Assembly: GCA_016191205.1 (NCBI GenBank)
Contig: JACPPB010000009.1
Coordinates: forward strand, 62,001 to 126,000
DNA from: Gammaproteobacteria bacterium
Lineage (GTDB): Bacteria; Pseudomonadota; Gammaproteobacteria; Pseudomonadales; Porticoccaceae
Length of the DNA: 64,000 bases
Reading direction: 5' to 3'
Within the stretch, counting starts at the first letter, position 1. Each line of letters starts with the position of its first letter. The notes beneath the pieces are model-generated. The model was given only the letters and a program-made list of their open reading frames with translations. It was not told the origin of the DNA and did not search any database. Both the position numbers and the translations under genes were made by a program. Positions 18,500 through 48,038 of the stretch are shown here, one piece after another.

Positions 18500-19606
18500 T
18501 CAGTACACCACCACCGCGCGGATACTTTCGCCCGCGTGCATCAGGTCGAAGCCGCGGTTGATGTCGGCGAGCGGCAAGGTGTGGGTGATCAGCGGATCGA
18601 TGCTGATTTTCCCCTCCATGTACCAGTCGACGATGCGTGGCACGTCGGTGCGGCCGCGGGCGCCGCCGAACGCGACCCCGTGCCAGGAGCGGCCGGTGAC
18701 GAGCTGGAATGGTCGGGTGGCGATTTCCTGGCCGGCGCCGGCCACCCCGATGATGTAGGACTCGCCCCAGCCCTTGTGGCAGCATTCCAGCGCCTGGCGC
18801 ATCACCTTGACGTTGCCGATGCACTCGAAGCTGTAGTCGGCCCCGCCCCGGGTGAGATCGAGCACCGCCGCCACCACGTCCGGTTCTTGCGAGGCATCGA
18901 TGAAATCGGTCATCCCGAACTGGCGCGCCAGCGCCACCTTGGCCGGATTGATATCGACGCCGATGATCTGGCGCGCCCCCACCAGACGCGCGCCCTGGAT
19001 CACATTGAGGCCGATGCCGCCGAGGCCGAACACCACCACCCGCGAACCGGGCTCCACCTTGGCACGAAACACCACGGCGCCGATGCCGGTGGTGACGCCG
19101 CAGCCGATGTAACAGATCTTGTCGAAGGGCGCGTCGGGGCGCACCTTGGCCAGCGCGATTTCGGGCAACACCGTGTAGTTGGAAAACGTCGAGCAGCCCA
19201 TGTAGTGCAAAAGCGGCTTGCCGTCGAGGGAGAAGCGGCTGCTGCCGTCTGGCATCCGGCCCTGGCCCTGGGTGGTGCGGATCGCCTGGCACAGATTGGT
19301 TTTCGGATGCAGGCAGTACTCGCACTGACGGCATTCGGGCGTGTACAGCGGGATCACATGATCGCCGGGCGCCACCGAGGTCACCCCCGCGCCCACTTCC
19401 ACCACCACGCCGGCGCCTTCGTGGCCCAGGATCGCCGGAAACAGGCCTTCGGGATCGTCACCCGACAGCGTGAAGGCATCCGTGTGGCAGATTCCGGTGG
19501 CCTTGACCTCGATCAGCACTTCACCGGCGCGCGGGCCTTCCAGGTCCACATCGCAGATCTCCAGGGGTTTGCCGGCGCCGAAGGCCACGGCGGCTTTGGT
19601 TTTCAT
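18500..19606 (-). CDS. frmA: S-(hydroxymethyl)glutathione dehydrogenase (class III alcohol dehydrogenase)
   Basis: NAD-dependent oxidation of the glutathione adduct of formaldehyde to S-formylglutathione; it also acts on GSNO and long alcohols. 368 residues. Catalytic zinc ligands are in GICHTDAF (C40) and GHEGAG (H62-E63); structural zinc cysteines are C92, C95, C98 and C106; the NAD loop is GLGGIG. ATG 19606 begins MKTKAAVAF as in the family. The usual partner, S-formylglutathione hydrolase, is not adjacent. gshB at 48644 supplies glutathione synthesis. Confidence 0.95.
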
Positions 19607-19642
19607 AGGCAAGTCTCGGTCGAGAGAAACAGCACCAGGCAT

Positions 19643-20962
19643 TCAGCCCAGCACATCGCGAATCGATTGTCGCAACCGTGCGACGAACAGGTCAATTTCC
19701 GCTTCGCTGATGACCAGCGGCGGCGACATCACCAGGTTGTCGCCCACGGCGCGGCACAGCAGGCCGTTCTGCCAGCAGCGGTTATGCACCGGCACGCCAA
19801 CGCCGCCCGGGTATTTGGCCGGATCGGGCGCCAGGGTCACGGCGCCCAGCAGGCCGTAGTTGCGGATGTCGATCAGGTGCGGAATGTCGCGCAGGCTGTG
19901 CAGGGCATTTTCCCAGTAGCGACCGATGGGGCCGGAAGCGCGCGTCAGCAGCCCCTCGCGTTCGTAAATTTCGAAGGCGGCCAAGCCCGCTGCCGCCGCC
20001 ACCGGCGAGCCCGCGTAGGTATTGCCGTGGAAGATTTCCGGTGCGCCCGCGGGCGCCGCGTCGAAAATGGCCTGCTGGATGTCCCGGTGCACGAACACGC
20101 CACCCATGGGCACGGTGCCGCCATTGATGGCTTTGGCGGTGGTCATGATGTCCGGCGTCACGCCGAACTCGATGGCGGCGAAGACCGAGCCGGTGCGCCC
20201 GAAGCCGGTGACCACCTCGTCGAAGATCAGCAGGATGTCGTGGCGGGTACAGATCTCGCGCAGGCGTTGCAGATAACCCAAGGGTGGCGGCACCATGCCG
20301 CCGGCGCCGACGATGGGCTCCACCACCACCGCGCAGATATTCTCGGCGCCGCGCTGGGCGATGAGTTTTTCCAGGGCGTCGAGTTTGTGCGCGCCCTGTT
20401 CCGGCAGTCCGCGACTGAAGGCATTGGCGGGAATATCGAGCAGGTCGGGCAAAAAATCGACGTTGTCCAGGGTCGGAAAACCCTTGCGGTTGTTGGGAAT
20501 TCCTTGCAGCGAGGTGCCGCCGATATTGACGCCGTGGTAGCCGCGCTCGCGGGCGATGAAGCGCGTCTTGCCGGCCTTGCCCCGGGCGCGCTGCCAGACG
20601 TGGGCGATCTTCATCGCCGTCTCGACCGATTCGGAACCCGAGTTGGTGAAGAACACCCGGTCGAGCCCCGGCGGCGCATATTCCGCCAGTTTCTCGGCGA
20701 AACGAAAGGTCACCGGCGCACCGAACTGGAACGGTGGCGCGAAATCCATCTCCAGTAACTGCTTGTGGACGGCATCGGCGATTTCACGCCGGCTGTGGCC
20801 GAGATTGACGCACCAGAGCCCGGCAGTGATGTCGAGTACCTCGCGCCCGTCCGGCGTGTAGACGAAGCAGCCTTCGGCGCGCGCGATCAGGCGCGGGTTC
20901 TGGCGAAAGCCCCGCACATTGGTAAAAGGCTGCCACCAGTGGGTGAGATTGGGGTCGGTCAT
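19643..20962 (-). CDS. Omega-amino acid-pyruvate aminotransferase (class III)
   Basis: PLP-dependent class III transaminase of 439 residues. The PLP lysine is K277 in TTAKAINGG; the cofactor-binding FTNSGSESVETAMK and IFDEVVTGFGRTG are present. WWQPFTNVR at the N-terminus is typical of the beta-alanine/omega-amino-acid:pyruvate branch. The amino donor is unknown (beta-alanine, taurine or a diamine are options). It is divergent from the six-gene cluster at 21134, with a 171-base gap. It probably runs on into frmA, since the stop and the frmA start are only 36 bases apart. Confidence 0.92.
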   Translation of the reverse strand: MTDPNLTHWWQPFTNVRGFRQNPRLIARAEGCFVYTPDGREVLDITAGLWCVNLGHSRREIADAVHKQLLEMDFAPPFQFGAPVTFRFAEKLAEYAPPGLDRVFFTNSGSESVETAMKIAHVWQRARGKAGKTRFIARERGYHGVNIGGTSLQGIPNNRKGFPTLDNVDFLPDLLDIPANAFSRGLPEQGAHKLDALEKLIAQRGAENICAVVVEPIVGAGGMVPPPLGYLQRLREICTRHDILLIFDEVVTGFGRTGSVFAAIEFGVTPDIMTTAKAINGGTVPMGGVFVHRDIQQAIFDAAPAGAPEIFHGNTYAGSPVAAAAGLAAFEIYEREGLLTRASGPIGRYWENALHSLRDIPHLIDIRNYGLLGAVTLAPDPAKYPGGVGVPVHNRCWQNGLLCRAVGDNLVMSPPLVISEAEIDLFVARLRQSIRDVLG

Positions 20963-21133: not shown

Positions 21134-22912
21134 ATGAGCTCACCCACCAGCGGAACGGCAATGGAAGGCCAACTACTTGAATACGGTGATCTGATCATCG
21201 CCTACCTGGAGCAACTGGGTGTCGAGTATGTGTTCGGCATCCCGGGTGGCGCGATCGAACCTTTCTACAACGCGCTGGCGCGCAGCGAACGCCGCGGTGG
21301 TCCCCGCGCCATCGTCGCGCGGCACGAGACCGGCGCCGCCTTCATGGCCGACGGCTACTCGCGCAACACCGGCAAGCTCGGTGTGTGCTGCGCCACCACC
21401 GGGCCGGGTGCCACCAACCTGATCACCGGGGTGGCCAGCGCCTACGAAAACCATATTCCGATGCTGGTGATTACGGCACAGACGGCGTTGTCGACGTTTG
21501 GCAGGGGAGCGCTGCAAGAATCATCCTGTACCGGAATCAACACGGTCGAACTGTTTCATTACTGCACCCGTTACAGCACGCTCATTTCGCATGTCGAGCA
21601 GTTCGAGCACAAGCTCACCACCGCCATCATGACGGCATTTGCATCGCCAATGGGCCCCGCTCATATCAGCGTACCGCTGGATGTAATGCGCAATGCCTAC
21701 CCTTACAAAGCCCCGAGCTTTTCACTGCCCAAGCTGCTTCAGAAGCCTGCCCTGTTTGATCAAGAAGCCGTCGACAAGCTTTATGACGAACTGATGGTCG
21801 CCAAGCATCCCGTATTTCTCTTGGGCGACGAGGCCGGAGAAGCCATAGGCCTGGTACTGACGCTCGCCATCAAGCTACAGGCTCAACTTATAGTCACTCC
21901 CCACGGCAAGAGCTTGGTTAGTCCGTTCCACCCCCTGTTTAGAGGAGTAATCGGATTTTCCGGCCATAAGAGCGCCCAGAACCTACTTTCTGATCCTCGT
22001 GTAGACAGAATTTTCGTCATTGGCGCTAATCTTGGGGAATGGGCGAGCAATGGTTGGGACCGACGCCTGTTTAGTCAGCGACTGATTCATATTGAGTCTA
22101 CCGAAGCGAATCTCGCCCGTACCCCGATGGCTGCACTCCATGTAAGAGGGCGAATAAAAACCATTTTCGAGCAGATACTGGATAAGTGCGGTCGGGAGCC
22201 CCGGCTGGTAGCAGTTGGCAAGTCCGATGGGCAGGGCGACCAAGACCCCGCCAAACGATATTTTTCCCTCGATGATGATGAGAAATATGATTCGGACGCG
22301 ACGCCGATCAAGCCGCAGCGATTGATGCGGATTCTGCCAACGATTTTTCCGCCCAATACCCACTATCTCGCTGACTCCGGGAACAGTTTTTCGTGGGCCA
22401 TTCACTACCTCCACCCCTATGACCGAAGGATGTCGGGGCAACGCGACGGCCGTGGTGGTTTGTTTCAGGTGGCCATGGAGTTCGCGTCCATGGGGTGGGC
22501 CATTGGCGGTGCAATTGGTGTAGCGCTGGCATGCCGACCCGACCCAGTGGTGTGTCTGGTCGGAGACGGCAGCATGTTGATGGCCGGGCAGGAAATAACA
22601 GTAGCCATTCAGGAAAAACTGCCAGTCATATTCGTTGTTCTAAACGACAGCGCCTATGGCATGGTCAAGCATGGCCAGAAAAAAACGGGCGCGGAACCTA
22701 TCGGCTACCGGCTGCCGCAGGTGGATTTCGCAGCCTTCGCCGAGTCCATGGGTGTGCCCGGTTATTTGATCAATTCGCCCCAAGACCTGCGCAGTCTGAA
22801 CGGTAGACAGATATGCGGGAGGGAAGGACCGAGTCTTCTGGACGTTCGAATTGATCCGGAAGAAGCGCCACCCATTGGTTTGAGAACCCAGGTACTTAGC
22901 CGGGACTGTTGA
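21134..22912 (+). CDS. ThDP-dependent acetolactate-synthase-like enzyme
   Basis: 592 residues in the three-domain acetolactate synthase/oxalyl-CoA decarboxylase layout. The catalytic glutamate is E65 (RHETGAAFMADGYSR), the glycine-rich TTGPGATNLITG follows, and the ThDP/Mg motif runs from G477-D478-G479 to N504. It should decarboxylate a 2-oxo acid and transfer the carbanion. It lacks an adjacent ilvH-type regulatory subunit, so it is unlikely to be the housekeeping branched-chain enzyme. Base composition drops from about 21480 to 22450. It is 9 bases from two citrate-synthase-fold genes, an unusual partnership. The acceptor substrate is unknown. Confidence 0.88.
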   Translation: MSSPTSGTAMEGQLLEYGDLIIAYLEQLGVEYVFGIPGGAIEPFYNALARSERRGGPRAIVARHETGAAFMADGYSRNTGKLGVCCATTGPGATNLITGVASAYENHIPMLVITAQTALSTFGRGALQESSCTGINTVELFHYCTRYSTLISHVEQFEHKLTTAIMTAFASPMGPAHISVPLDVMRNAYPYKAPSFSLPKLLQKPALFDQEAVDKLYDELMVAKHPVFLLGDEAGEAIGLVLTLAIKLQAQLIVTPHGKSLVSPFHPLFRGVIGFSGHKSAQNLLSDPRVDRIFVIGANLGEWASNGWDRRLFSQRLIHIESTEANLARTPMAALHVRGRIKTIFEQILDKCGREPRLVAVGKSDGQGDQDPAKRYFSLDDDEKYDSDATPIKPQRLMRILPTIFPPNTHYLADSGNSFSWAIHYLHPYDRRMSGQRDGRGGLFQVAMEFASMGWAIGGAIGVALACRPDPVVCLVGDGSMLMAGQEITVAIQEKLPVIFVVLNDSAYGMVKHGQKKTGAEPIGYRLPQVDFAAFAESMGVPGYLINSPQDLRSLNGRQICGREGPSLLDVRIDPEEAPPIGLRTQVLSRDC

Positions 22913-22921
22913 CGCAACATT

Positions 22922-23746
22922 ATGACTGCCAACCAATCCGAGACGATTTCGACCAAAATCTGGCGTGAAGAACCCGAGCCGGACAATCCCTTTGCCGCCC
23001 GGGCCTGCTATTGCTCGGGTTACGACGTCTACGGCGATCTGTTGGGGAAAATCACCTGGATCGAATATGTCTGGCTGTTGTTCCGGCTCGATCCGCCCAC
23101 CCCGGTGCAGAAAACCCTGCTCGAAGGTCTGGCGGTGGGGCTGGCCAATCCCGGGCCGCGCGATCCCAGCATACACGCCGCGATGAGCGCGGGGGTGGGA
23201 GGCTCGACCCACGCCTCCGCGCTCATCGCGGCCATCGCGGTCGGCGCCGGCAATCTGGGCGGCGCGCGGGAGGTGCTGACCGCGATGCAGTACTGGGCGC
23301 AGTGCGGCACCGATCTCGATGCCTGGCGCGGGATCATCGCGACGCCACCGGTGGAGGAGCGTACCGATGTGTGGCCCGCCATGGAACACACACCGGGCTT
23401 CGATCCCAACGGCGCGCGCTGTCCGACTCCGGTCCGGCAGTTGCTCGACCATCTGGCAACCCACAGTGACGGCGCGATACTCCCCTGGCTCGCCGCGCAC
23501 CGCGAAACCCTGGAGCAGTGCGCGGCCTCCCCGCTGGCGTTTTCCGGCGTAGCGGCCGCAACCCTGCACGAGCTGGGTTTCAGCCCCGAGCAAGGCGAGA
23601 TGCTGTTTCTGATGTTGCGTCTGCCTGGCGCCGCCGCCCATGCCCTGGAGCAGCACATGAACTGGGCACGATTTCCTTTTTTTGGCAGCGGCCTCACCCT
23701 GACCGACGATCCGGGTCCGGTTGCCAGGACGGGGAAGCAGCCATGA
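22922..23746 (+). CDS. Half-size citrate-synthase-fold protein A, atypical active site
   Basis: 274 residues resembling the citrate synthase/citryl-CoA lyase fold: DVYGDLLGKITWIEYVWLLFR at the N-terminus, ANPGPRDPS, and STHASALIAAIAVGAGNLGGARE. In citrate synthase the last motif contains a catalytic histidine before Gly-Gly-Ala; here that place is L112. The second histidine region (GFGH) reads TPGFDPNG, without a histidine. An aldol-type citrate reaction by the standard mechanism is therefore doubtful. Its last four bases (ATGA) overlap the start of a second protein of the same fold. I infer a hetero-oligomer, with function unknown. Confidence 0.72.
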   Translation: MTANQSETISTKIWREEPEPDNPFAARACYCSGYDVYGDLLGKITWIEYVWLLFRLDPPTPVQKTLLEGLAVGLANPGPRDPSIHAAMSAGVGGSTHASALIAAIAVGAGNLGGAREVLTAMQYWAQCGTDLDAWRGIIATPPVEERTDVWPAMEHTPGFDPNGARCPTPVRQLLDHLATHSDGAILPWLAAHRETLEQCAASPLAFSGVAAATLHELGFSPEQGEMLFLMLRLPGAAAHALEQHMNWARFPFFGSGLTLTDDPGPVARTGKQP

Positions 23747-24543
23747 CTGGGCCGGCAATGCTCAAGGAGTTCGAAGACAACTGGGTCACCGCCATGGGCG
23801 CCTGGTTTCCCGGCGAGCGGGTGGTGCTGCGGGGCAAGGATGTGCTGAGCGATCTGGGGCGACGGCCTTGGATGGAATATCTGGTTTACGCAATAACGGG
23901 AAGAGAATCACCCGAGTTGGCAAGACTAATCGAGGGTATCTGGGCCATTAGTTGCAGTTACCCTGATCCCAGATTGTGGAACAACCGAGTAGCTGCCTTA
24001 GCGGGAACCAGTCGATCAACAGGCGTATTGGCAATCGCCTCCGCCGTTTCGGTTACAGAGGCGACACTTTACGGATTGAGACCAATCAAGCGGGCGATGG
24101 ATTTTTTCTACCGCGCCGATAGCAAGCTGAAGCAAGGGCAATCCCTCGAAGAAGTGATTCGAACCGAACTCAAGAGCTTTAGGGTGGTGTCCGGTTATGG
24201 CAGGCCGATCGCCGAAACAGATGAACGTATTTCACCGCTGCTGAGATTTGCGAAGACCCTTGGCAAGGGTAACGGGCCCTATGTAAAACTAGCCCTCCAA
24301 GTCCACGACTATCTAAAGAACTCGAGATACAAAAACCAGATCAATATCGCTGCACTTGCTGCCGCGATCCTGGCGGATGAAGGGCTGTCGCCGGAGGACT
24401 TGTACAACCTCGCAACCTTGGCATTTGTTGCTGGCATGTTTCCCTGTTACATCGACGCAAGACAAAAGCCGGAGGGTGCGTTGTATCCATTGCGAACCAC
24501 CCGCATCAATTATAGGGGCGCTGAAACGCGGCACTGGGGATAA
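23743..24543 (+). CDS. Half-size citrate-synthase-fold protein B, atypical active site
   Basis: 266 residues, again citrate-synthase-like: DVLSDLGRRPWMEYLVYAITGR at the N-terminus and STGVLAIASAVSVTEATLYGLRP in the core. The place of the first catalytic histidine is Y110, and the second motif reads GYGRPIAETDER with R154 where GFGH has histidine. ATG 23743 overlaps the stop of protein A. The first 45 codons are GC-rich like the neighbours; from about 23880 the DNA becomes much richer in A and T, which suggests a recombination joint inside the gene. The stop is 2 bases from the TonB-dependent receptor start, so the genes are probably coupled. Confidence 0.72.
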   Translation: MTGPAMLKEFEDNWVTAMGAWFPGERVVLRGKDVLSDLGRRPWMEYLVYAITGRESPELARLIEGIWAISCSYPDPRLWNNRVAALAGTSRSTGVLAIASAVSVTEATLYGLRPIKRAMDFFYRADSKLKQGQSLEEVIRTELKSFRVVSGYGRPIAETDERISPLLRFAKTLGKGNGPYVKLALQVHDYLKNSRYKNQINIAALAAAILADEGLSPEDLYNLATLAFVAGMFPCYIDARQKPEGALYPLRTTRINYRGAETRHWG

Positions 24544-24545
24544 AG

Positions 24546-26681
24546 ATGCATAAATTAAGCTATCTCGGCTTGCTTGTTCTCGCGTTGCCGCTGGCAGGAA
24601 ACACCCAGCCGCAGTCCACGGCGGAGGAGGAGTTGACTGAGCTCTATGGCAGCGAGGAGTTCGTAAGGATCGCCACCGGCGTAGCCCAGCCGGTCTCCAA
24701 GGCGCCAGCGGTGGCGTCCGTGATCACGGCAGACGACATCAAAAAGATGGGCGCCACGGATATCGACGAGGCGTTGGAGACAGTGCCAGGGCTCCACGTA
24801 GCGCGCAGCGATGTGGGCTATAACCCACAGTACATTTTTCGAGGCATTGCCGGAGACTTGAATCCCCAAGTACTGATGCTGATCAATGGTATTCCGATAA
24901 CCAACCTGTTCCACGGCGACAGGAATATTGGCTGGGGCGGTATGCCGGTGGAGGCCATCTCCCGTATCGAGGTGGTGCGGGGGCCGGGCTCTGCTGTCTA
25001 TGGCGCCGATGCCTTTGCCGGAGTGATCAATATCATCACCAAAACCCCGGCCGAGATGAATGGGCTGTCGATGGGCGTCCGCGCTGGCAGCTTCGATACC
25101 CGGGACGGCTGGCTGCAATATGGTGGCGTCAGCGACGAGTTTCGCTTCGGCGCCATTGTCGAGGCACACAAAACCGACGGGCAGCGGGAGCGCGTGGGCG
25201 CCGATGCCCAGAGTTTTCTAGATCTGGTATCCGGCACCAGTGCCTCCCTGGCGCCCGGGCCGGTGAGTCTGCGGCGGGACAATCTGGACGCGCGCGTCGA
25301 GCTGGGCTATCGCAACCTGACCTTTCACGGCGGTGCGCAAATCCGCAGCGATGAAGGCGTCGGCATTGGTGCCGCGCAGACCTTGGATCCCAAGGGCGGC
25401 GTTTCCAGCGACCGTTACAATGCCGATCTGACCTACGACAATCCAACGTTCACCGACACTCTGGGCATCAAGGTCCAGGGCAGCGCCCTGTTCACCACTC
25501 AGGAAGTGGCAAACAATCTGCAACTGTTTCCGCCCGGCTCCCGGGGACCGTTTTTCACCCCGCTGGGCACGCCCATTTTCCCGCCGTTTCCCGATGGCGT
25601 GATCGGCAACCCCGAGGTGTTCGAACGCCATTACCGCCTGAACAGCGTGCTGTCGTATTCCGGGTTCGCGGACCATCAGATTGCGTTTGGCGCCGGCTAC
25701 TACTACGGCGAGGTGTACAAGACCAAGGAAACGAAGAATTTCGGATTCGATCCGACCACCGGTTTCCCGATCCTGCCCGGTAGCCCGCTGGTGGATGTCT
25801 CGAACACCCCTCTGGTCTTTCTGCCCGAAGGTCGGCGCGAGAACACCAGCGTCTTTCTGCAGGATATCTGGCATCTGGCCAATGACTGGGAGCTGACCGC
25901 CGGCGCGCGCTACGATCATTTTTCGGATTTTGGCGACACCACCAACCCGCGCGTCGCCCTGGTATGGTCGGCGCGTCAGAATCTCACCATCAAGGCGCTC
26001 TACGGCGAGGCGTTCCGGGCACCCTCTTTTGCAAACACCTCAGAACGGTCAAACCCAGCGCTTCTTGGGAATCCCAATCTGAAACCTGAGAAATTGGATA
26101 GCTCGGAATTAGCATTCAACTACCGCCCAACCTTCGACCTGAGTCTGGATTTCAACCTGTTCCAGTACACCTGGCAGGACATCATTCAGTTCATTCCCGA
26201 TGCCGCCGGTGGCACCCGCACCGCGCAGAACTCCGGCGAGCAGAAAGGCCATGGCGCGGAATTCGCGCTCACCTGGGAGGCTACCAAAACCCTCAAGCTG
26301 TCCGGCAACCTCGCCTGGCAGAAATCCGAGGATCAGGCGACCCACGAAGATTCCGGCAACGCGCCGGGACATCAGACCTATGCGCGTGCCGACTGGATTC
26401 TCAGTCCCGGCTGGAATCTCGATGCACAGACCAACTGGGTGGCGGATCGCAATCGCGTGGTGGGCGATCCGCGCGGTAAAATCGACGATTACGTGATGAC
26501 GGATCTGACCTTGCGCAATACGAGCCTGGTGCCGAAGCTGGAGTTCGCACTGCTGGTCAAGAACCTGTTCGACGCCCATGCCCGCGAACCCAGTCTGAAT
26601 GGCACTCCGGTGCCCGCGATTCCCAACGATTTGCCGCTGGCGGGCCGGGCGGCTTTTGTGGAAGTACGTTACACCCCTTGA
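24546..26681 (+). CDS. TonB-dependent outer-membrane receptor
   Basis: 711 residues: signal peptide (LGLLVLALPLAGNTQPQ), a possible energy-coupling segment around EELTELYGSEEF, plug domain with SVITADDIKKMGATDIDEAL and RIEVVRGPGSAVYGADAFAG, then a barrel ending in FVEVRYTP with the terminal aromatic pattern of outer-membrane proteins. GGGA precedes the ATG. It is located between the citrate-synthase-fold gene (2-base gap) and a periplasmic binding-protein gene, so it may feed or sense the ligand processed by these proteins. A short patch near 26030-26110 is AT-richer than the rest. Confidence 0.92.
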   Translation: MHKLSYLGLLVLALPLAGNTQPQSTAEEELTELYGSEEFVRIATGVAQPVSKAPAVASVITADDIKKMGATDIDEALETVPGLHVARSDVGYNPQYIFRGIAGDLNPQVLMLINGIPITNLFHGDRNIGWGGMPVEAISRIEVVRGPGSAVYGADAFAGVINIITKTPAEMNGLSMGVRAGSFDTRDGWLQYGGVSDEFRFGAIVEAHKTDGQRERVGADAQSFLDLVSGTSASLAPGPVSLRRDNLDARVELGYRNLTFHGGAQIRSDEGVGIGAAQTLDPKGGVSSDRYNADLTYDNPTFTDTLGIKVQGSALFTTQEVANNLQLFPPGSRGPFFTPLGTPIFPPFPDGVIGNPEVFERHYRLNSVLSYSGFADHQIAFGAGYYYGEVYKTKETKNFGFDPTTGFPILPGSPLVDVSNTPLVFLPEGRRENTSVFLQDIWHLANDWELTAGARYDHFSDFGDTTNPRVALVWSARQNLTIKALYGEAFRAPSFANTSERSNPALLGNPNLKPEKLDSSELAFNYRPTFDLSLDFNLFQYTWQDIIQFIPDAAGGTRTAQNSGEQKGHGAEFALTWEATKTLKLSGNLAWQKSEDQATHEDSGNAPGHQTYARADWILSPGWNLDAQTNWVADRNRVVGDPRGKIDDYVMTDLTLRNTSLVPKLEFALLVKNLFDAHAREPSLNGTPVPAIPNDLPLAGRAAFVEVRYTP

Positions 26682-26705
26682 CCCCCGGCCACGAACTGGC
26701 AGGGG
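26682..26705 (+). terminator. Hairpin between the receptor and the periplasmic protein genes
   Basis: CCCC-G-GCC (within 26683-26690) pairs with GGC-A-GGGG (26698-26705) with one mismatch, just after the receptor stop. It is followed by CCTTTG, with no long T tract. It may be an attenuator or RNA-processing structure that lowers expression of the downstream signalling genes. Confidence 0.35.
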
Positions 26706-26741
26706 CCTTTGATAACCTTCAAGGAAAAGGATACGACCAGG

Positions 26742-27641
26742 ATGGGACCCATGGCCCGTGCCATAGCAGTAGTACTGGCATTGTTGACGGCTTCCCACGC
26801 GCTGGGCGAGAGAGTGCTGATTCTTTACCCTCAGGTCCGTGAGCCCTACACGAAGATCTACCAGGACACCCTGGAAGGCATTGACCAAGCCTACAAGGGC
26901 CCATACACGACGCTCGTGATACAACCCGGGCAACATCTTGAACCCGGCGTGATCGCGCGCGCGGCTCCCAGCCTCTATGTCGCTTTGGGCAACGATGCGG
27001 CGCGTGAATTGGGGATAGTGGCGCCGGAAGGGCCCGTCATCACGACGGCGAGCCAGGACGTTGACTTCAAGGTGCGCCATCAACTGACCTATTACCCGGA
27101 TCCGGATACGCTCATCACCCAGTTGCAAAGGTTTCAGCCGGGTATTCGCTCGCTCTTCCTGGTTGCCGAAAGCGATACGGATGCCTATGAGGATCGGGTG
27201 CGGGAGACCCTGGCCCGCGCGGGAATTGGACTCAGGGTGTGTGCCGCCGGTAGCCTGGCGGCAGCGGCGGTCTGCTATCGCCAACTGCTGGATGCGGCCA
27301 CGACGCGGGATGCCATCTGGATCCTCCACGGCGGCAAGTTGATGGAGCCGGCCCTGCTGACGAATATTTTGTCCACCGCCTGGGAGCGGCAACTGACGGT
27401 GCTGTCGTCGAATCCCGATCATGTGCGCCGAGGCGCGCTGCTTTCGCTCTACCCGGATAATCTCAGCGCGGGACGTCAGCTTGGCGACATGATCACGGCC
27501 TGCCTGGCCCCGGGCAAATGCACGCGCTCGGAAACCCGCTATTTGCGCACCATGGGCGTTGCGCTCAATGAGCGCACCAGTCGCCACCTGGGTCTCGTCA
27601 TCAGTCCCGAGGCGCGGAAAAGCGCCGACCTGGTTCTCTGA
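26742..27641 (+). CDS. Periplasmic ABC-substrate-binding-like protein
   Basis: 299 residues with a signal peptide (IAVVLALLTASHALGE). The fold is that of uncharacterised ABC-type substrate-binding proteins (PF04392-like): LYVALGNDAAREL, LFLVAESDTDAYEDRVRETL, and ISPEARKSADLVL at the C-terminus are typical. No ABC permease or ATPase is adjacent, so the protein more likely presents a ligand to the membrane kinase encoded 14 bases downstream. The start is uncertain: ATG 26742 (AAGGA about 10 bases upstream) and ATG 26751 both retain the signal peptide. Confidence 0.8.
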   Translation: MGPMARAIAVVLALLTASHALGERVLILYPQVREPYTKIYQDTLEGIDQAYKGPYTTLVIQPGQHLEPGVIARAAPSLYVALGNDAARELGIVAPEGPVITTASQDVDFKVRHQLTYYPDPDTLITQLQRFQPGIRSLFLVAESDTDAYEDRVRETLARAGIGLRVCAAGSLAAAAVCYRQLLDAATTRDAIWILHGGKLMEPALLTNILSTAWERQLTVLSSNPDHVRRGALLSLYPDNLSAGRQLGDMITACLAPGKCTRSETRYLRTMGVALNERTSRHLGLVISPEARKSADLVL

Positions 27642-27655
27642 GGAAGCCTGGCCTG

Positions 27656-30600
27656 ATGCTGACATTTCGATTGCGCAACCTCCGGTTTCGGCAGCAACTC
27701 ACGCTGCTGTTCGTCATCGGCGCGCTGCTGATGGCGCTGGTTGGCTCGCTCGGCGCCAGCAAATTCGCCAGCGATCTGGTGGCGCGGGAAATGCGCCAGC
27801 AGGGCATCAATGTGGCGCACACCCTGGGCCTTCACGCCAAGCTCGCCATGCTGTACGAGAGCAAGGAAGCTGCCGCCGATGCCGTCAAATCCATCGCCGG
27901 TTTCCCCGACATCGAGGTACTCGACATCCACTCCGTCGCAGGAACCTTGCTGTATGGCGGCGGCGCGTCGGTATTTCCGCAGGAGGTGTCGGCGGACAGT
28001 GCCGATTTTGCCGAGCTCGACCTGCCGGATCGCTGGTTGTTCAGGTTGCAGGTGTATGCGGAACCCTCGCCGGACACTACTGGTACCGGAGAAGTGGAAC
28101 GCCCCGAACGTCTCGGTAGCGTGACCATTGCGCTGTACAAGCGCACCCAGCAGGAATTGGCGCAGCGCATCTTCCAGGGGATCACCCTGGTATTTTCCCT
28201 GGCAGCCGGGTTGTTGCTGTTGCTCCTGATCCGGATGACGCACCGTTTGACCAGCCCACTCGAAGCGCTGGCGCTGATCATGGGCCAGGCCGAGCAGGGC
28301 GATCTGCGGGTACGAGCCGACCTGCATCGCGGTCAGGCCGACGTGTTCCAGATGCAGCACGCATTCAATGCCATGATGGATGAGCTCGAAAATCGCGACG
28401 CCGAGCTGCAGCGGGCCCGCGATGCCGCCGTGGAATCCGCCCGCCTTAAGGGCGAGTTCGCCGCCAACGTGACCCACGAGTTGCGCACGCCCATGAACGG
28501 GGTGCTGGGTCTGCTCGATTTGCTGTCCGACGGCAAGCTCAATGCCCGCCAGGCCGAATATGTCGATCTGGCCCGCAAGTCCGCCGAGGGCTTGCTGAGC
28601 CTGGTGGACAACATCCTGGATTTTTCGAAGAACGACAGCGGGATGGCGCGACAGGAAGCAGGCGAAATCATTCTGCGCGATTTCATCGAGGAGCTGGTGG
28701 AACTGGTCGGGACCCAGGCGCTGGGCAAGGGCGTCGATATCGGCTACTCCATGGCGATGGACGTTCCGGCGACGCTCAGCATCGATGCGTCCAAGGTCAA
28801 GCAGGTGTTGATCAACCTGTTGGGGAATGCGGTGAAGTTCACCGATGCGGGCGAAGTATTTCTCACTGTCACCCGGTCGTCCGGCACGCAGTCTTCCCTG
28901 CGCTTTGCAGTGTCCGATACCGGTATCGGCATTGATCCTGCGTTGCAGCAGCAGATTTTCGAACCCTTTACCCAGGGCGATGCGTCCGCCAGCAAACGCT
29001 ATCAGGGCACGGGGCTCGGTCTGACCATCTCGCGCCAGCTCGTCGAGATGATGGGTGGCGAGATCGGGCTCGACAGCGCGCCGGGTCGTGGCAGTACTTT
29101 CTGGTTCGAGCTGCCCTGTGTCGCCCCGCTCGCGCTACCCACGCCGGCGCGCTTGCCAGGGAGCGATGCGGGTACCGCGCTGTGCATACTCGCGAGCGAC
29201 AACAGTTATGGCTTTATCGCCGATACTCTGATGCGCCATGGCGTGCGTGCGGTCCATGCCGTGAACATGCAGGCCGCGCGCGGGCATCTGGTCGAATCCG
29301 GTGCCAGCAACGGCGCCGACCTGGTGCTGGTCGATGAAGGCATCTATTTCGCGCACAGCGACGAATTCGATCTGCTTGCCGCCGCGGTACCTGGCCGGGT
29401 GCAGGTGCTGCGCAATCCGTTCGCCAAACTGCAGATAACCACGGCGGATATCAGGGTGCTGGACAAGCCGTTGAGTTTTGCGCCAATTGCACACCTGGCC
29501 GAGGCGTTGCGTACCGGCGTGGTGGGTGAGCCGGTTGCCGCCGCACCGGCATTGCCGGGCGCCGAAGCATTCGGACACCTGCGCGTACTGCTGGTGGAAG
29601 ACAACGCGGTCAACCAGAAAGTCGCTTCTGAAATGCTGTTGCGTCTGGGGATCGCGGCGGATCTTGCCGAACATGGGCAGCAGGCGCTCGGCATGGTGGC
29701 GCGCGCCGACTACGACCTGATCCTGATTGACTGCAACATGCCGGTGATGGATGGTTACGACGCGACCCGCAGGATTCGCGCGCTGGAAACCGATCGCACG
29801 GTACCGATAATCGCCATGACCGCCGGCACCGGCGAGCAGGAACGGAAGCGCGCCATCGATGCGGGGTTCAGCGATTTTCTCCACAAGCCTGTGCGACTCG
29901 AGCTGCTTGCCGCCGGGATTGCGCGCTGGGCGCCCGTGCGCTCCCGTGTCGCGAAGACGGTGTCGCCGCCCGATCCCGGGCAAGCCTACAGCGAACAGGC
30001 GATGAACGAATTGCACGTCAGTGTGGGTGATGTCACCTACCGGATGATCGAGTCCTTCCTGGAAGATACCCCGGTTTACCTGGATTCGCTGAAAGCCGCG
30101 CTGCGCGACGGCGACGCCCAGCGTGCCTACGAGATTGCCCACACCATCCGGGGCAGCGCCAGCAATTTCGGTGCGAAGGCGTTTGTGGATGCCATTCTTG
30201 CGCTCGAAGCCTTCAGCAAGGCGGGCGATTTGTCGGGCAGCGATACTCTGCTCGACATCGGCAATGAGCGGTTCGCCGCCCTGCGCAAGGATCTCGAACG
30301 GCACCGGGCGAGTGAGTCGGGGCACCACACCGGCGCGCCGGGCAAATACCGGTTACTGATCGCGGATGATGACCGCACCTTGCGTCTTGCACTGCGCGGC
30401 ACCTTTGCCGGCGACGAATTCGATGTGCTGGAGGCGGCCGACGGCGCCCAAGCCATCGCCCTGTGCGAGCGGGTCATGCCCGACATCATTCTTATGGACG
30501 CCATGATGCCGGAAGTCAGTGGCTTCGATGCCTGCCGGCGTATTCGCCAGTTGCCCGGCGGCGCCGAGCTGCCGGTGCTGATGGTCACTTCCCTCGACGA

Positions 30601-32068
30601 TGAGGATGCCATCGTGCGGGCGTTCGCCGCCGGCGCCTCGGATTACATCACCAAACCGATTCACTTCGTCGTGCTGAAGGAGCGGGTGGGTCGCCTGATC
30701 AAGGCGAATCGGGCCGAAGCCCGCGCCCGGACCCTGGCTTTTGCCGATGCGCTGACCGGGCTGCCCAACCGCGCCCGGCTGACCCAGGAGCTGGGGCTGG
30801 CGCTCAATCAGGCGACCATCAACAACGAACGCATCGCGGTGTTTTTTCTCGATCTGGACAATTTCAAGAACATCAACGACAGCCTCGGGCACCAGGTCGG
30901 CGATCTGCTGCTGAAAGCGGTGGCCGATCGCCTGCGTTCCAGCGTCCGGCGCAGCGATTTCATTGCCCGTCTCGGTGGTGATGAGTTTACCGTGATCCTG
31001 CGCCGCGTCGAAAGCGAGGAGGTGGTTGCGACCATTGCCCGCAATATTCTCGTCGCCCTGAATGAGCCCTTTGTCTTTATCCACAAGCGCATGATGGTTT
31101 CCACGAGCATCGGCATTTCGATGTTTCCGGACCATGGCACGGACGTCAGTTCACTGCTCAAGCATGCCGATCTGGCCATGTTCAAAGCCAAGGAGACCAA
31201 GAATCAGTTCTGCTTCTACCAGGACGGAATGGAAGATGTGGTGTCGCATAAATTGCAGCTCCAGCAGGAACTGCGCCAGGCCATCGACAACGATCTGCTG
31301 GTGCTCTATTTCCAGCCCCAGTACGACTTGACGACAGACAGGGCCGTAGCTGCCGAGGCCTTGGTGCGCTGGCCCCGCCACGACGGCCAGGTGCTGACGC
31401 CGGGTGCCTTCATTCCGCTGGCGGAGGAGACCGGCCTGATCACCGAGGTGACCGATCTGGTGCTGGAAAAAGCCTGCGGCGCGATCCGGGGCTGGCTGAT
31501 CCGCGGCTATGCCGTGAAACTCTCGGTGAACCTGTCCGGCAAGGATTTCGAAGTGCCCGGACGCTTGGTCCAGCGGGTTACCGAGCTGACGCGCAAGTAT
31601 GAGATCCCGGCGCGGCTGCTCGAACTGGAAATCACCGAGAGCATGCTGATGGCGGACCCCGAACGCAGCCGCGCGGAGTTGCTCGAACTGAAGAATGCCG
31701 GATTCAGTCTGTCGATCGACGATTTCGGCAGCGGCTATTCATCGCTCTACTATCTGAAAAACCTGCCGGTTGACGTGCTGAAGATCGACCGGGCTTTCAT
31801 CAAGGATCTGGACGACCCGCAGAACCGCCGCGACATTCCGGTGATTACCGGCATCATTGCGCTGGCGCGCAGTCTGGGCTTGCACACGGTTGCCGAAGGT
31901 GTGGAAACGCATCACCAACGGGCGGTGCTTCAGTCGCTCGGTTGCGAAATGATCCAGGGCTACCTGATCAGCAGGCCGTTGGCCCAGACGGAGTTTGCGC
32001 AGACATTTCTCGAGCAATTCCGGGTGGCTTCCAAGGGACCGCACCTGCGGCAGGTAAAACCGGGATAA
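27656..32068 (+). CDS. Giant hybrid sensor kinase with receivers, Hpt, GGDEF and EAL domains
   Basis: 1470 residues. Order: membrane segment 16-36, periplasmic sensor of about 135 residues, membrane segment 172-193, HAMP, HisKA (H274 in THELRTPMNG), HATPase, a degenerate receiver, a receiver (D692), Hpt (H829 in AHTIRGSASNFGA), a receiver (D948), GGDEF (intact, 1107-1111), EAL (intact, E1234) with DDFGSGYSSL. Both the full phosphorelay and both cyclic-di-GMP active sites look functional. GAGGAA precedes the ATG. Following a TonB-dependent receptor and a periplasmic binding protein, it probably senses a ligand-bound envelope complex and sets cyclic-di-GMP levels. No separate response regulator is adjacent. 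Confidence 0.93.
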   Translation: MLTFRLRNLRFRQQLTLLFVIGALLMALVGSLGASKFASDLVAREMRQQGINVAHTLGLHAKLAMLYESKEAAADAVKSIAGFPDIEVLDIHSVAGTLLYGGGASVFPQEVSADSADFAELDLPDRWLFRLQVYAEPSPDTTGTGEVERPERLGSVTIALYKRTQQELAQRIFQGITLVFSLAAGLLLLLLIRMTHRLTSPLEALALIMGQAEQGDLRVRADLHRGQADVFQMQHAFNAMMDELENRDAELQRARDAAVESARLKGEFAANVTHELRTPMNGVLGLLDLLSDGKLNARQAEYVDLARKSAEGLLSLVDNILDFSKNDSGMARQEAGEIILRDFIEELVELVGTQALGKGVDIGYSMAMDVPATLSIDASKVKQVLINLLGNAVKFTDAGEVFLTVTRSSGTQSSLRFAVSDTGIGIDPALQQQIFEPFTQGDASASKRYQGTGLGLTISRQLVEMMGGEIGLDSAPGRGSTFWFELPCVAPLALPTPARLPGSDAGTALCILASDNSYGFIADTLMRHGVRAVHAVNMQAARGHLVESGASNGADLVLVDEGIYFAHSDEFDLLAAAVPGRVQVLRNPFAKLQITTADIRVLDKPLSFAPIAHLAEALRTGVVGEPVAAAPALPGAEAFGHLRVLLVEDNAVNQKVASEMLLRLGIAADLAEHGQQALGMVARADYDLILIDCNMPVMDGYDATRRIRALETDRTVPIIAMTAGTGEQERKRAIDAGFSDFLHKPVRLELLAAGIARWAPVRSRVAKTVSPPDPGQAYSEQAMNELHVSVGDVTYRMIESFLEDTPVYLDSLKAALRDGDAQRAYEIAHTIRGSASNFGAKAFVDAILALEAFSKAGDLSGSDTLLDIGNERFAALRKDLERHRASESGHHTGAPGKYRLLIADDDRTLRLALRGTFAGDEFDVLEAADGAQAIALCERVMPDIILMDAMMPEVSGFDACRRIRQLPGGAELPVLMVTSLDDEDAIVRAFAAGASDYITKPIHFVVLKERVGRLIKANRAEARARTLAFADALTGLPNRARLTQELGLALNQATINNERIAVFFLDLDNFKNINDSLGHQVGDLLLKAVADRLRSSVRRSDFIARLGGDEFTVILRRVESEEVVATIARNILVALNEPFVFIHKRMMVSTSIGISMFPDHGTDVSSLLKHADLAMFKAKETKNQFCFYQDGMEDVVSHKLQLQQELRQAIDNDLLVLYFQPQYDLTTDRAVAAEALVRWPRHDGQVLTPGAFIPLAEETGLITEVTDLVLEKACGAIRGWLIRGYAVKLSVNLSGKDFEVPGRLVQRVTELTRKYEIPARLLELEITESMLMADPERSRAELLELKNAGFSLSIDDFGSGYSSLYYLKNLPVDVLKIDRAFIKDLDDPQNRRDIPVITGIIALARSLGLHTVAEGVETHHQRAVLQSLGCEMIQGYLISRPLAQTEFAQTFLEQFRVASKGPHLRQVKPG

Positions 32069-36501: not shown

Positions 36502-36990
36502 CTAGTTGCGACTCAGGCCCGCGCTGACGACCAGTTGTTCGAGCAGATCGAAATCCGGGATGAGCGCGGGTTCGCCGCGCACCTCGACGACGAGCGCGGC
36601 GCCGCGCGGGGCCGCTACGTCCAGGGCCCGCAGATCGCTGTCCGCGCTCAGGCGCAATGGTCGGGGCAACTCCCGAATCGCAAGCCCATAAAACCCCTGG
36701 CTGGCCGCCGGGCCGACGGCGTTGATGATCGCCACGCGATGACTCGCCCACGGCGCCGCCGACGCCCCGTCAGCTATGCCTTCGTAGGCGAGCAAAGGAA
36801 TTTCACAACCGCGCCACGGCAACCAGCCGTGCAGCCAGGGCTGGTCCGCCGGCGCCGGCTGCGGCGCTTCTTCGAGGATTTCCGCCACTGCGGCCAGAGG
36901 CAGCAGCAGTTGCAGTCGATCAGTCGCCAGAGAGAGCAGCAGACTATCGACTTCGATCGTTTTTTGATTGCGTTCACCGGCGTCGCTCAA
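36502..36990 (-). CDS. chpC: CheW-like adaptor of the Pil-Chp system
   Basis: 162-residue CheW-domain protein: LLSLATDRLQLLLPLAAVAEIL at the start, then PWLHGWLPWRGCEIPLLAYE in the core, and a C-terminal LIPDFDLLEQLV. In Pseudomonas, ChpC couples additional inputs to ChpA. It overlaps chpB by 4 bases (ATGA) and is the last gene of the operon. A short hairpin, CCTCG-GCGCG-CGAGG, follows at 36479-36493. Confidence 0.85.
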   Translation of the reverse strand: MSDAGERNQKTIEVDSLLLSLATDRLQLLLPLAAVAEILEEAPQPAPADQPWLHGWLPWRGCEIPLLAYEGIADGASAAPWASHRVAIINAVGPAASQGFYGLAIRELPRPLRLSADSDLRALDVAAPRGAALVVEVRGEPALIPDFDLLEQLVVSAGLSRN

Positions 36991-37910
36991 GATGCCTCCA
37001 CCTGCGGCCCGCAGGCCGGTGTGCCATAACGAAAGTTAAAGCGGCGAGCCAACGCCGCGACATCGCCACTGTAGTCCACCTCACCCCGGGCCAGCACGGC
37101 TTCCGGCATGGCCGACGCGACGCATGTATCCGGACGCTGTGCCCAGATTTCGCCGCCGTGTTCGCGTATGTGTTCGCTGCCCAGGGCGCCATCGTCCCCC
37201 ATGCCGCTGAACACAATCATGCCGGCAGACTCGCGATAGGCCAGCGCAAGGGTCTCGGCGACCTGATCCGCGCTCGGGCGATAGGGTCCGGGCCAGGGGG
37301 TCGATAGAATCCGCATACCCCGGTCGCGGTTGATGCGTAGTTTGTGGTCCGGAGCGACTACGGTGAGGGTGCCTTCGAGGAAATAGTTGCCTGTGGCCGC
37401 GACCTGAATATGCCAGCGGGGGGCGCGGATCGCGAGTTGTCGCACCAACTGGGGAAAATGCGTGGATGTCAGGTGTTGCACGTAGAGCAGTGCAAGTTTG
37501 GGCGTCGGGATGGTGGCGGCAAGGAACCGCTCCACCGCATCCGGCCCCCCGGTGGAGGCGGCCAGCAACCATACCCGCTCGGCGCGGGCCGCCGGTTGTC
37601 CCGAGTCCCCGACAAACCGGGGAGCACTCTCAATACGTTGACGTAGATACCGCTTCCAGGCGGAGTAGTCGGCATCCGCGGCTGCGATAAAGGCAGGTTC
37701 CAGCTCGAGCTCAAAACAGTCGTGGCGAGGGGGGCGATCCGCTCTGTCACCGGTTCCGAGCCATATCAGCAGGTCGAAACGGTCATGATCCGCGGCAGCC
37801 GCAGTTGGTCCGGGCGCGGCATCGAGCAGTACGACGTGCCCCAATTCCTCCAGCGCCCGACACAGCAGGGCGCGCGCTGCCGGATGTTGCGCGATCACGC
37901 CTACCTTCAC
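36987..37910 (-). CDS. chpB: CheB-type protein-glutamate methylesterase of the Pil-Chp system
   Basis: 307 residues. The C-terminal methylesterase domain has the catalytic serine S119 (AASTGGPDAV), histidine H146 (YVQHLTSTHF) and aspartate in SGMGDDGA (D239/D240). The N-terminal about 100 residues look like a receiver that has lost its acidic pocket. It removes methyl groups from PilJ. Four-base overlaps with chpA and chpC point to translational coupling. Confidence 0.92.
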   Translation of the reverse strand: MKVGVIAQHPAARALLCRALEELGHVVLLDAAPGPTAAAADHDRFDLLIWLGTGDRADRPPRHDCFELELEPAFIAAADADYSAWKRYLRQRIESAPRFVGDSGQPAARAERVWLLAASTGGPDAVERFLAATIPTPKLALLYVQHLTSTHFPQLVRQLAIRAPRWHIQVAATGNYFLEGTLTVVAPDHKLRINRDRGMRILSTPWPGPYRPSADQVAETLALAYRESAGMIVFSGMGDDGALGSEHIREHGGEIWAQRPDTCVASAMPEAVLARGEVDYSGDVAALARRFNFRYGTPACGPQVEAS

Positions 37911-43543: not shown

Positions 43544-44495
43544 GGGACGCCTCGTCGTCGGCCGGGCGGCGGTAGGCCGCGACCCCGGGGTGCTCGACGC
43601 GGGTCAGGCCGGCCGGACACCAGTCGTGGGATTCACCCGGACCCAGAATCAGATGGCCGCCGGGCTTGAGGCGCTGGGCGAGAAAATTAAGCGTGTCGTG
43701 GCGGCGCCAGCGACGGAAATAAATCAGCAGGTTCTGGCAGAAAATGATATCCGCTCCTTCGGGGAAAAATCCCCGCTGCCGCAGCAGCAGGTTGTCCACG
43801 ACAAAAGCCAGCCGACTGCGCACTTCAATGCGAAATCGGAAGCGTCCGGCACCGACCGGTTCCAGAAAACGCGTCGCATACTCCTTGGGAAGGTCGAGCA
43901 GGGCGTGAGCGGGGTAGGTGCCAGTGCGGGCTTCCTGCAGCGCCGACCGGCTCAGGTCGGTCCCGATCACGGCAAAGTCACCGCTACGTCGGGCGGTGCT
44001 GAATCCCTCGATGGCATCCAGCGCGAGGGAATAAGCTTCTTGCCCGGTGGAGCAGCCGACGCTCCATAAATTGAGGCTGCTGCCGCCGCTGGCGGCGTGA
44101 CGCTGCACGCTGTGGCGGACGAACGCGTGGGATTCCCGATGCCGGAAAAACCGGGTTTCCTTGATCAGCAGGCGGTCCATCAACAGACGCCTTTCACCCT
44201 CGCCGGCGGCGGTCTGCAGCATGCGTTCAAAATATTCATCCGGATCCGTCAAGCCCAATTCCAGTAGTCGTTGCTCGAGTTGGCGACGGACAAAGGGCTC
44301 GCGGCGCTGGTCCACCACAACCCCGGTTTCCCGTTCGAAACAGTCGGCCCACAGCTGGTAGTGACCATCCTCCAGCGCGCGAACCTCCGGCTGGAGGACA
44401 CCGTCATCAGGACCGCAGGCGGCCTGCCGTTGGTTGCGACCACTCCCGGTAGCGTCCGCTGCGCCGGGGTGGCTGACCCTCTGGGTGGTGGTCAT
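43533..44495 (-). CDS. pilK: CheR-type chemoreceptor methyltransferase
   Basis: 320 residues. SAM-binding motifs [15 protein letters not shown] and [13 protein letters not shown], and the late [12 protein letters not shown], are CheR signatures; the N-terminal helical domain contains [18 protein letters not shown]. It methylates glutamates of PilJ, opposing ChpB. It overlaps pilJ by 4 bases and chpA by 11 bases. Confidence 0.93.
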
Positions 44496-47026: not shown

Positions 47027-47059
47027 GGGGATAAGACGGCTCCAGCTGCTGGTGTTGGG

Positions 47060-47632
47060 TTAATTTGTCTGCGCAGCGGGTCTGCGTAGCGAGGCGTCGC
47101 GAAACGTGGGATCCTGGAAGAGCAGGGCGGGATCGAACAGCGGCAAGATACGCTGGTTGGCGTCGATCAGCCCACCCGCCACAAATCGATGAAAAGGTCC
47201 GGCCTGGAGTTCTTGCCGTTCGCGGAACATGTCATGGGCAAAATGCCGCAATCCGTCGACCCGATCCACGATAACGCCCGCGGAAAAATCGTCCGAGACC
47301 ATGACCAGTATGCGCTGGTGTTTGGATGGGGACGTCAAGCCCTGCCCCAGAAATTCGGCACCGTCGACCACTGGCAGGAGCTTGCCGCGCACATTGGCGA
47401 TACCGCGCATCCACGGCTGCACCTGCGGCAGGCGCGTCAGGTGGCGTACCGGAAGAATTTCCGAAAGGCATTCGAGATCGACCAGCGCATCGCAGCCCGC
47501 GAGCTGGAATGCGACCATGGTCGCCACCGGGGAGTACTCGGCCTGCGCCGGCAGCCGACTCGCCGCCTTGGTGAAGGTTCGGGCTAAATCCTGCAGCAGG
47601 GTAAACGGATCGGGCGGTGCTACAGCGTTCAT
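47060..47632 (-). CDS. pilI: CheW-like coupling protein
   Basis: 190 residues with a single CheW domain: VATMVAFQLAGCDALVDLECLSEIL, in two parts, RLPQVQPWMRGIANVRGKLLPVVD and VIVDRVDGLRHF. It links PilJ to ChpA. It lies 33 bases before pilJ and 7 bases after pilH in transcription order. Confidence 0.92.
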   Translation of the reverse strand: MNAVAPPDPFTLLQDLARTFTKAASRLPAQAEYSPVATMVAFQLAGCDALVDLECLSEILPVRHLTRLPQVQPWMRGIANVRGKLLPVVDGAEFLGQGLTSPSKHQRILVMVSDDFSAGVIVDRVDGLRHFAHDMFRERQELQAGPFHRFVAGGLIDANQRILPLFDPALLFQDPTFRDASLRRPAAQTN

Positions 47633-47639
47633 GCGGCCA

Positions 47640-48002
47640 TCACGGAATCAGGCTCTCGATCATGGCGATCAACTCGCGCTCGCGAACCGGCTTGGTCACA
47701 TAGCCCCGCGCGCCCTGCCGCGCGCCCCAGACGCGATCCGCCTGCTGGTCCTTGTTGGAAACCATAATGATGGGAATGTGCCGCGTTTCCGCGCTCTGCG
47801 TCAGCAGGCGCGTGGCTTGAAAACCGTTCAGGCCCGGCATGACGATATCCATCAGGACGACGTCCGGCCGCTGGTCGCGCGCCACCTGCACGCCGATCTC
47901 GGCGCCGGCGGCGGAGATCACGGCGTAGCCGTTACGGTTGAGGATTCCGGTCAGGCCCAAGGTATCCACGGGTGAGTCATCGATGATCAAGACCTTCGGC
48001 AT
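47640..48002 (-). CDS. pilH: CheY-like response regulator PilH
   Basis: 120-residue single-domain receiver: acidic pair D8/D9, phospho-acceptor D52 (VVLMDIVMPG) and the conserved lysine in YVTKPV. In P. aeruginosa PilH favours retraction control or acts as a phosphate sink for PilG. It follows pilG by 36 bases. Confidence 0.94.
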   Translation of the reverse strand: MPKVLIIDDSPVDTLGLTGILNRNGYAVISAAGAEIGVQVARDQRPDVVLMDIVMPGLNGFQATRLLTQSAETRHIPIIMVSNKDQQADRVWGARQGARGYVTKPVRERELIAMIESLIP

Positions 48003-48038
48003 CAGTCGCCGTCCCCAGTGCTGAAAAGGTATTCCACG

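Follow-up and report, generated by a model that had tools for sequence, protein, structure and literature searches.

A conserved six-gene cluster in Pseudomonadota that may make and sense its own small-molecule signal

What keeps three enzyme genes and three envelope genes together in a single run in a Porticoccaceae genome? The run lies in a stretch of 64,000 nucleotides (the window; all coordinates are counted from its first letter), where six open reading frames (ORFs), all on the + strand, occupy positions 21134-32068. They encode, in order, a thiamine diphosphate (ThDP)-dependent enzyme, two proteins with a citrate synthase (CS) fold, CS1 and CS2, a TonB-dependent outer-membrane receptor (TBDR), a solute-binding protein (SBP), and a hybrid histidine kinase (HK). 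It is strongly supported that the six genes are one conserved system and not chance neighbours. The reading preferred here, with a probability of about 0.6, is that the cluster is a self-contained system which synthesizes and senses a small-molecule signal; we infer both the molecule and the direction of synthesis. Domains were assigned with Pfam and NCBIfam, and the six genes are:

21134..22912, + strand: ThDP-dependent carboligase, 592 amino acids, in a BbmA/CsmA/CybE-like clade (three Pfam ThDP domains, PDB relatives, tree, residue table)
22922..23746, + strand: CS1, citrate-synthase/citryl-coenzyme A (CoA)-lyase fold, 274 amino acids, without the catalytic His, His and Asp (profile against PDB entry 6hxp)
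23743..24543, + strand: CS2, second citrate-synthase-fold protein, 266 amino acids, catalytic triad absent (profile against 6hxp; low-confidence AlphaFold2 model)
24546..26681, + strand: TBDR, 711 amino acids, plug and barrel (Pfam)
26742..27641, + strand: SBP, an orphan periplasmic binding protein, ABC_sub_bind/TrpX-like, with a hydrophobic N-terminal segment (PF04392; profile against 3lkv and 3lft)
27656..32068, + strand: hybrid kinase, 1470 amino acids, with a transmembrane (TM)-periplasmic-TM-HAMP region, HisKA, HATPase, REC, Hpt, REC, GGDEF and EAL (Pfam, TM scan, motifs)

The gaps between the genes, in gene order, are 9, -4, 2, 60 and 14 bases. The CS2 start codon sits within an ATGA overlap with the end of CS1 (4 bases), and the SBP starts at an ATG at 26742, with a longer TTG frame opening at 26709. 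A consensus scan found no terminator-like sites in the gaps of the cluster. The preliminary description of this DNA had named six co-directional genes with these families and positions; the ORFs, the Pfam and NCBIfam assignments and the profiles against 6hxp agree with it.

Linkage of the six genes across genomes

Gene neighbourhoods were gathered around the CS1 carriers of the class, five named loci from a second collection, and carriers in other classes. CS1 is present in 30 of the 274 genomes of the class, spanning 22 families. The full six-part set was found within 20 kb in 23 other neighbourhoods from at least two classes of the phylum (L035, L036, L038, L040-L042, L044-L050, L056, L062-L065, L108-L111, L187), so that the neighbourhood comparison suggested in the preliminary description finds the enzyme trio beside the receptor-SBP-kinase trio again and again. 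Several cluster genes are in pieces in L064, and contig ends truncate a number of further loci. Among 20 random 20-kb control regions of the same genomes, none had a ThDP, CS, TBDR or SBP match. Some kinase-like or GGDEF-like match was held by 8 of the 20, and kinases alone therefore mean little. When all neighbouring ORFs were clustered, only the core cluster families recurred widely.

The commonest gene order is that of the window (ThDP-CS1-CS2-TBDR-SBP-HK). SBP and HK are inverted behind TBDR in L038, L042 and L049, while four genomes of another class (L108-L111) have TBDR-CS1-CS2-ThDP-SBP-HK in a tight operon, with gaps of a few bases or overlaps. Linkage which survives such rearrangement points to selection for keeping the genes together.

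The two halves also co-occur. The SBP subfamily is present in 26 of the 30 CS1 genomes vs 6 of the 244 others (Fisher p ~1e-26, phylogeny not corrected). Of the six CS1-negative genomes with the SBP, four (G064, G179, G204, G206) encode a ThDP enzyme of the cluster type at another site; G179 has CS2 as well, and in G064 a fragment of CS2 lies at the end of a contig. In G132, where the SBP match is weaker, the order is ThDP-TBDR-SBP-HK without CS genes. It is hardly credible, then, that the enzyme trio and the envelope sensor are independent modules which happen to be neighbours in the window's genome. Each half does occur alone in a few genomes, but linkage in 23 neighbourhoods with varied gene orders, together with the strong co-occurrence, refutes this explanation at the level of conservation, and the two adjacent but unrelated modules offered as an alternative in the preliminary description are rejected on the same grounds.

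Named carriers are Porticoccaceae, Sideroxyarcus (Gallionellaceae), Candidatus Nitricoxidireducens bremensis (Sterolibacteriaceae) and two unclassified Gammaproteobacteria. RuBisCO is moderately associated with the cluster (23/30 CS1 genomes vs 109/244 others, p 0.0009, phylogeny not corrected); it was not found in the window's own genome. That genome is the sole carrier among the sampled genomes of its order; it may have gained the cluster by transfer, or kept it while its relatives lost theirs. Two nearly complete genomes, G213 (L182) and G232 (L183), contain the SBP and the sensor kinase without a detectable enzyme trio. The TBDR adjoins the receptor module in G213 and is on another contig in G232. 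Both are candidates for cells which listen without producing.

The carboligase and the citrate-synthase-fold pair

The ThDP enzyme carries all three ThDP domains in Pfam. Its best PDB relatives are BbmA (300 bits) and CsmA (254 bits), with Escherichia coli acetohydroxyacid synthase (AHAS) I at 206 bits. NCBIfam names it acetolactate-synthase-like, but well below every cut-off: 268 bits against TIGR00118 (acolac_lg; cut-off 538) and 225 against TIGR02418 (AlsS; cut-off 551). A tree built from 50 sequences puts the cluster enzymes in one group with BbmA and CsmA, and 100/100 support separates this group from AHAS I and from the AHAS-type paralogs that the same genomes carry; the branches of BbmA and CsmA are long, so that the finer placement inside the clade is unsure.

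The cluster enzymes have five residues (His177, Pro256, Lys259, His278, Gly514) in common with BbmA and CsmA, at positions where the most frequent residue of AHAS-type enzymes is another one. Position 514, which we take to be that of the specificity Trp in the acceptor pocket of most AHAS enzymes, is Gly in 32/32 cluster enzymes, Trp in 9 of the 15 AHAS-type paralogs and Gln in E. coli AHAS I. In the alignment Gly514 falls on Gly484 of BbmA, which is changed in PDB entry 8xod. Catalytic Glu65 and the cofactor motif GDGS (477-480)/Asn504 are intact. The identification as an acetolactate synthase (AHAS/AlsS) is rejected by the cut-offs, the tree and the specificity residue, and the tree and the shared residues place the enzyme in the alpha-hydroxy-beta-keto-acid synthase (CybE/CsmA/BbmA) clade. 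CsmA and BbmA (spelled BpmA in the paper) have been described as homologs of CybE, which couples 4-hydroxyphenylpyruvate and 2-oxoisovalerate to an alpha-hydroxy-beta-keto acid (PMC12395478). Judged by family and residues, the cluster enzyme is likely to join two 2-oxo acids by carboligation, with ample space in its acceptor pocket.

In Pfam the matches of CS1 and CS2 are weak, and their NCBIfam scores for citryl-CoA lyase fall far short of the cut-offs. With profiles built from 19 sequences for each protein, citryl-CoA lyase 6hxp came first for both (CS1 E 1.4e-21, CS2 E 1.1e-16), with homology over most of the protein, which places both in this fold. The catalytic residues of the citrate synthase family are His, His and Asp. 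At these positions CS1 has variable residues (Asn/Gln/Glu, Pro/Ser, Thr/Ser/Gly) and CS2 has Tyr, a gap or Arg, and Ala. Citrate synthase or citryl-CoA lyase activity is rejected for CS1 and CS2, as the catalytic His/His/Asp is missing in both. The two citrate-synthase-fold proteins of the preliminary description thus stand as far as the fold is concerned; the chemistry of citrate synthase is not to be assumed for them. Both proteins have their own sets of nearly invariant residues: the polar residues Glu16, Arg80, His240 and Glu243 in CS1, and Arg77, Trp79, Asn81, Arg154, Asp160-Glu161-Arg162, Asn201, Asp212, Cys235 and Arg263 in CS2, where the motif R154-P155 / D160-E161-R162 is invariant.

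CS1 and CS2 are nearly always an adjacent, dissimilar pair whose ends usually overlap or touch, and for this reason they likely form a hetero-oligomer. AlphaFold2 with only four and five sequences gave an unusable model for CS1 (predicted local distance difference test, pLDDT, 39) and a weak one for CS2 (pLDDT 55, predicted template modelling score 0.60). A Foldseek search with the weak CS2 model again returned citryl-CoA lyase 6hxp first, with a poor root-mean-square deviation, which makes it no more than consistent with the sequence result. A CS2 search of a plasmid collection returned no match.

Some variation was seen around the pair. In one case an AMP-binding acyl-CoA ligase gene directly follows CS2 (L105:8057-9568), hinting at a CoA-ester substrate for the CS-fold pair. 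A short-chain dehydrogenase is found in or beside the enzyme genes at L062:8050-8766, L054:8997-9587 and in L059 near 7923 (assigned by Pfam in L062 and L054) and is a possible tailoring step. In the complete genome G136 (L054) CS2 is split into pieces near C1 3775510 and 3257642, about 518 kb apart, a pattern that an inversion or another rearrangement within CS2 could leave.

Receptor, binding protein and sensor kinase

The Plug domain of the TBDR begins at residue 50 (Pfam) and there is no N-terminal signalling extension. A TonB signal transducer of the FecA/FpvA type is rejected: the signalling domain is missing and no FecR/FecI regulator pair recurs in the neighbourhoods. Eight cluster genomes were tested for TBDR matches at E<=1e-30: in seven there are none besides the in-cluster copies, and in the eighth, G293, the cluster TBDR copy was matched in two pieces. 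The SBP belongs to PF04392 (Pfam), with profile matches to 3lkv (E 4e-14) and 3lft (E 3e-13). Neighbourhood clustering found no permease or ATPase recurring beside it.

These genes bear on the improbable explanation that the trio makes a hydroxy-carboxylate metal chelator, which the TBDR re-imports while the kinase monitors the loaded complex. The best-scoring models for the TBDR are those of heme, siderophore and B12 receptors, and one carrier (L035) belongs to the iron-oxidising Gallionellaceae, but all of those model scores are far under the cut-offs. Moreover, no inner-membrane importer or exporter of metal complexes is conserved, PF04392 is not a known siderophore-binding family, and variants without a TBDR nearby exist (L104-L107).

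The sensor of the kinase is shared between loci, and the output attached to it varies. The parts of the window protein that matter here are:

27656..28390, + strand: sensor module, kinase residues 1-245 (profile match in 16 SBP-adjacent partner proteins)
30737..31978, + strand: GGDEF and EAL output domains, signature motifs intact (Pfam, motif check)

All relay and output motifs of the window kinase are intact (His274, Asp692, His829, Asp948, GGDEF, EAL). In most loci a partner protein is encoded 0-60 bases from the SBP and opens with the same TM-periplasmic-TM-HAMP sensor. The sensor profile, built from matches to the window sensor, detected this module in the 16 partners, including L035 and L063, which have no kinase; its E-values are for that reason optimistic, although the seed matches came from the window alone. 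The sensor runs into a histidine kinase in most loci. One chain leads from the sensor kinase to GGDEF (and EAL where complete) in the window, L045-L047, L050 and L056. A separate GGDEF-EAL protein is encoded nearby in L038, L042, L049, L058, L062 and L064 (REC-PAS-GGDEF-EAL in the two scanned). PAS-GGDEF-EAL follows the sensor directly, in one protein, in L035 (Sideroxyarcus) and L063. The strongest evidence for a cyclic-di-GMP output is that the domains behind this one sensor are exchanged between loci and mostly lead to cyclic-di-GMP.

The enzyme trio is also found beside other sensors. In L104, L106 and L107, from another class, ThDP-CS1-CS2 is followed by a protein of 1727-1771 residues and then a response regulator:

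L104:3657-8969, L106:11391-16571, L107:11325-16514: large kinase after the trio

The large protein is a Ser/Thr kinase-AAA-GAF-histidine kinase (scanned in L104 and L106) and the regulator is of the NarL type (scanned in L106 and L107); the two are possibly an alternative receptor for the same product. PAS/GAF hybrid kinases flank the trio in L055, a REC-SpoIIE phosphatase is encoded upstream in L040 and L041, and a chemoreceptor in L042. Because the trio adjoins signal transduction genes even without the TBDR and SBP, this pairing favours signal production over catabolism; it is no proof.

The catabolic explanation holds that an external compound, perhaps aromatic and 2-oxo-acid-like, is captured by the TBDR and SBP, reported by the kinase to cyclic-di-GMP, and degraded by the ThDP and CS-fold enzymes. 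TonB receptors do usually import, and the SBP family resembles TrpX-type binders, whose ligands we take to be aromatic amino acids. The relative of CS1 and CS2, citryl-CoA lyase, is a lyase, and receptor-only genomes exist (G213, G232). Nevertheless, this explanation is unlikely: the neighbourhoods of the trio conserve neither an inner-membrane transporter nor a catabolic gene for later steps, the ThDP clade consists of synthetic carboligases, and the trio pairs with other sensor kinases where no TBDR or SBP is nearby.

A putative signalling system, its relatives and its surroundings

Under the preferred reading of synthesis and sensing, the ThDP enzyme would couple two 2-oxo acids, one or both of them with a bulky side chain, to an alpha-hydroxy-beta-keto acid or acyloin. 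CS1-CS2, probably as one hetero-oligomer, would turn this product into the signal; they would still bind an acyl-CoA or keto acid, with chemistry differing from that of citrate synthase. The signal would then leave the cell by a presumed export step and re-enter the periplasm via the dedicated TBDR. There the orphan SBP would bind it, and the loaded SBP would act on the adjacent TM-periplasmic-TM-HAMP sensor, which would drive a His-Asp-His-Asp phosphorelay and through it GGDEF-EAL activity and the level of cyclic-di-GMP. We infer the substrates, product, export, ligand identity and direction of control alike.

Several observations weigh against this reading. Judged by sequence, the direction could be synthesis or breakdown, and the product and ligand are putative. 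No exporter recurs in the neighbourhoods. The step after the ThDP enzyme is a guess, as both CS proteins are without the known catalytic triad. In L108-L111 the kinase has a REC domain and no GGDEF-EAL was seen nearby, and cyclic-di-GMP is therefore not the universal output. Some genomes also hold one half only: four CS1 genomes lack the SBP (G071, G201, G101, G136), and the receptor is present in G213 and G232 where the enzymes were not detected. The enzyme family and the sensor architectures agree with the earlier suggestion that the envelope senses a 2-oxo-acid-derived compound and that the output is cyclic-di-GMP; under this suggestion the compound would be either made or degraded, might act as a metal complex and might switch the cell between motile and sessile life.

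The odds are about even that the cluster represents a chemical language of bacteria which has yet to be described. In it, a ThDP carboligase and a heteromeric CS-fold enzyme of new chemistry would make a diffusible signal derived from an acyloin; a dedicated TBDR would recapture this signal, and a receptor composed of binding protein and kinase would read it and act straight on cyclic-di-GMP. The language would be spread over many Pseudomonadota families and be more frequent in RuBisCO genomes. A literature search by gene content found the combination described in none of the openly licensed papers searched, although an earlier description elsewhere is possible; the preliminary description had likewise known of no such system.

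Parts of the cluster resemble known systems. The ThDP enzyme shares its clade and residues with CybE, CsmA and BbmA. In the furanolide pathway, however, the next enzyme, CybF, is a 3-oxoacyl-acyl-carrier-protein-synthase-type protein (PMC8777810), whereas the cluster has a CS-fold pair, tied to receptors, in second place. The furanolide pathway (CybCEF) as such is rejected, as CybF is of the ketosynthase type and not CS-fold, and no such family recurs in the neighbourhoods. CS1 and CS2 are homologous to the citryl-CoA lyase/citrate synthase family (6hxp) but differ by the absent triad and by forming a dissimilar pair.

On the receptor side, one close arrangement is the NspS-MbaA polyamine sensor (Vibrio cholerae, Sinorhizobium), in which a permease-less binding protein acts on a membrane GGDEF-EAL protein. 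An orphan binding protein adjoins a membrane GGDEF-EAL protein directly in L035 and L063, and via the kinase relay in the window. Unlike NspS, the cluster SBP is PF04392/TrpX-like and not PotD-like, with a different ligand; most cluster loci have a kinase relay, and a TBDR and dedicated enzyme genes are linked. The autoinducer-2 receptor LuxP-LuxQ consists of a periplasmic binding protein and a hybrid kinase and reads a self-made small molecule. The cluster likewise pairs a binding protein with a hybrid kinase, but the binding-protein family is another, there is no LuxS in the cluster, the output is fused to GGDEF-EAL, and a TBDR is present. Because the binding-protein family differs, the cluster is a member of neither system.

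If the preferred reading is true, environmental bacteria would have in this cluster a new kind of signal, for communication between cells or for self-sensing, with the signal-making genes linked directly to their own receptor. Its carriers include relatives of iron oxidisers and many RuBisCO genomes, for which few signals are known, and cyclic-di-GMP is the messenger bacteria use to choose between swimming and settling. The CS-fold pair has lost the textbook active site yet stays together across the phylum, which suggests new chemistry.

Upstream lie the genes of a class-III aminotransferase and a zinc alcohol dehydrogenase, which point away from the cluster across a gap of about 170 bases (18500-20962, - strand):

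19643..20962, - strand: class-III aminotransferase, divergent from the ThDP gene (Pfam Aminotran_3)

The aminotransferase neighbour is kept only in the close relative L033 (a Porticoccaceae genome bin, 81-85% identical) and in no other neighbourhood at this place. It could supply a 2-oxo acid to the ThDP enzyme, and an association with the cluster is possible. Downstream of the cluster lies a convergent acyl-CoA dehydrogenase gene. Further on, positions 36987-52828 encode a CheB-like protein, a CheA-type protein of 1878 amino acids, a chemoreceptor and a type II/IV secretion ATPase, and look like a pilus-type chemotaxis (Pil-Chp) region. A polyphosphate kinase gene at 60529 follows this Pil-Chp-like region.

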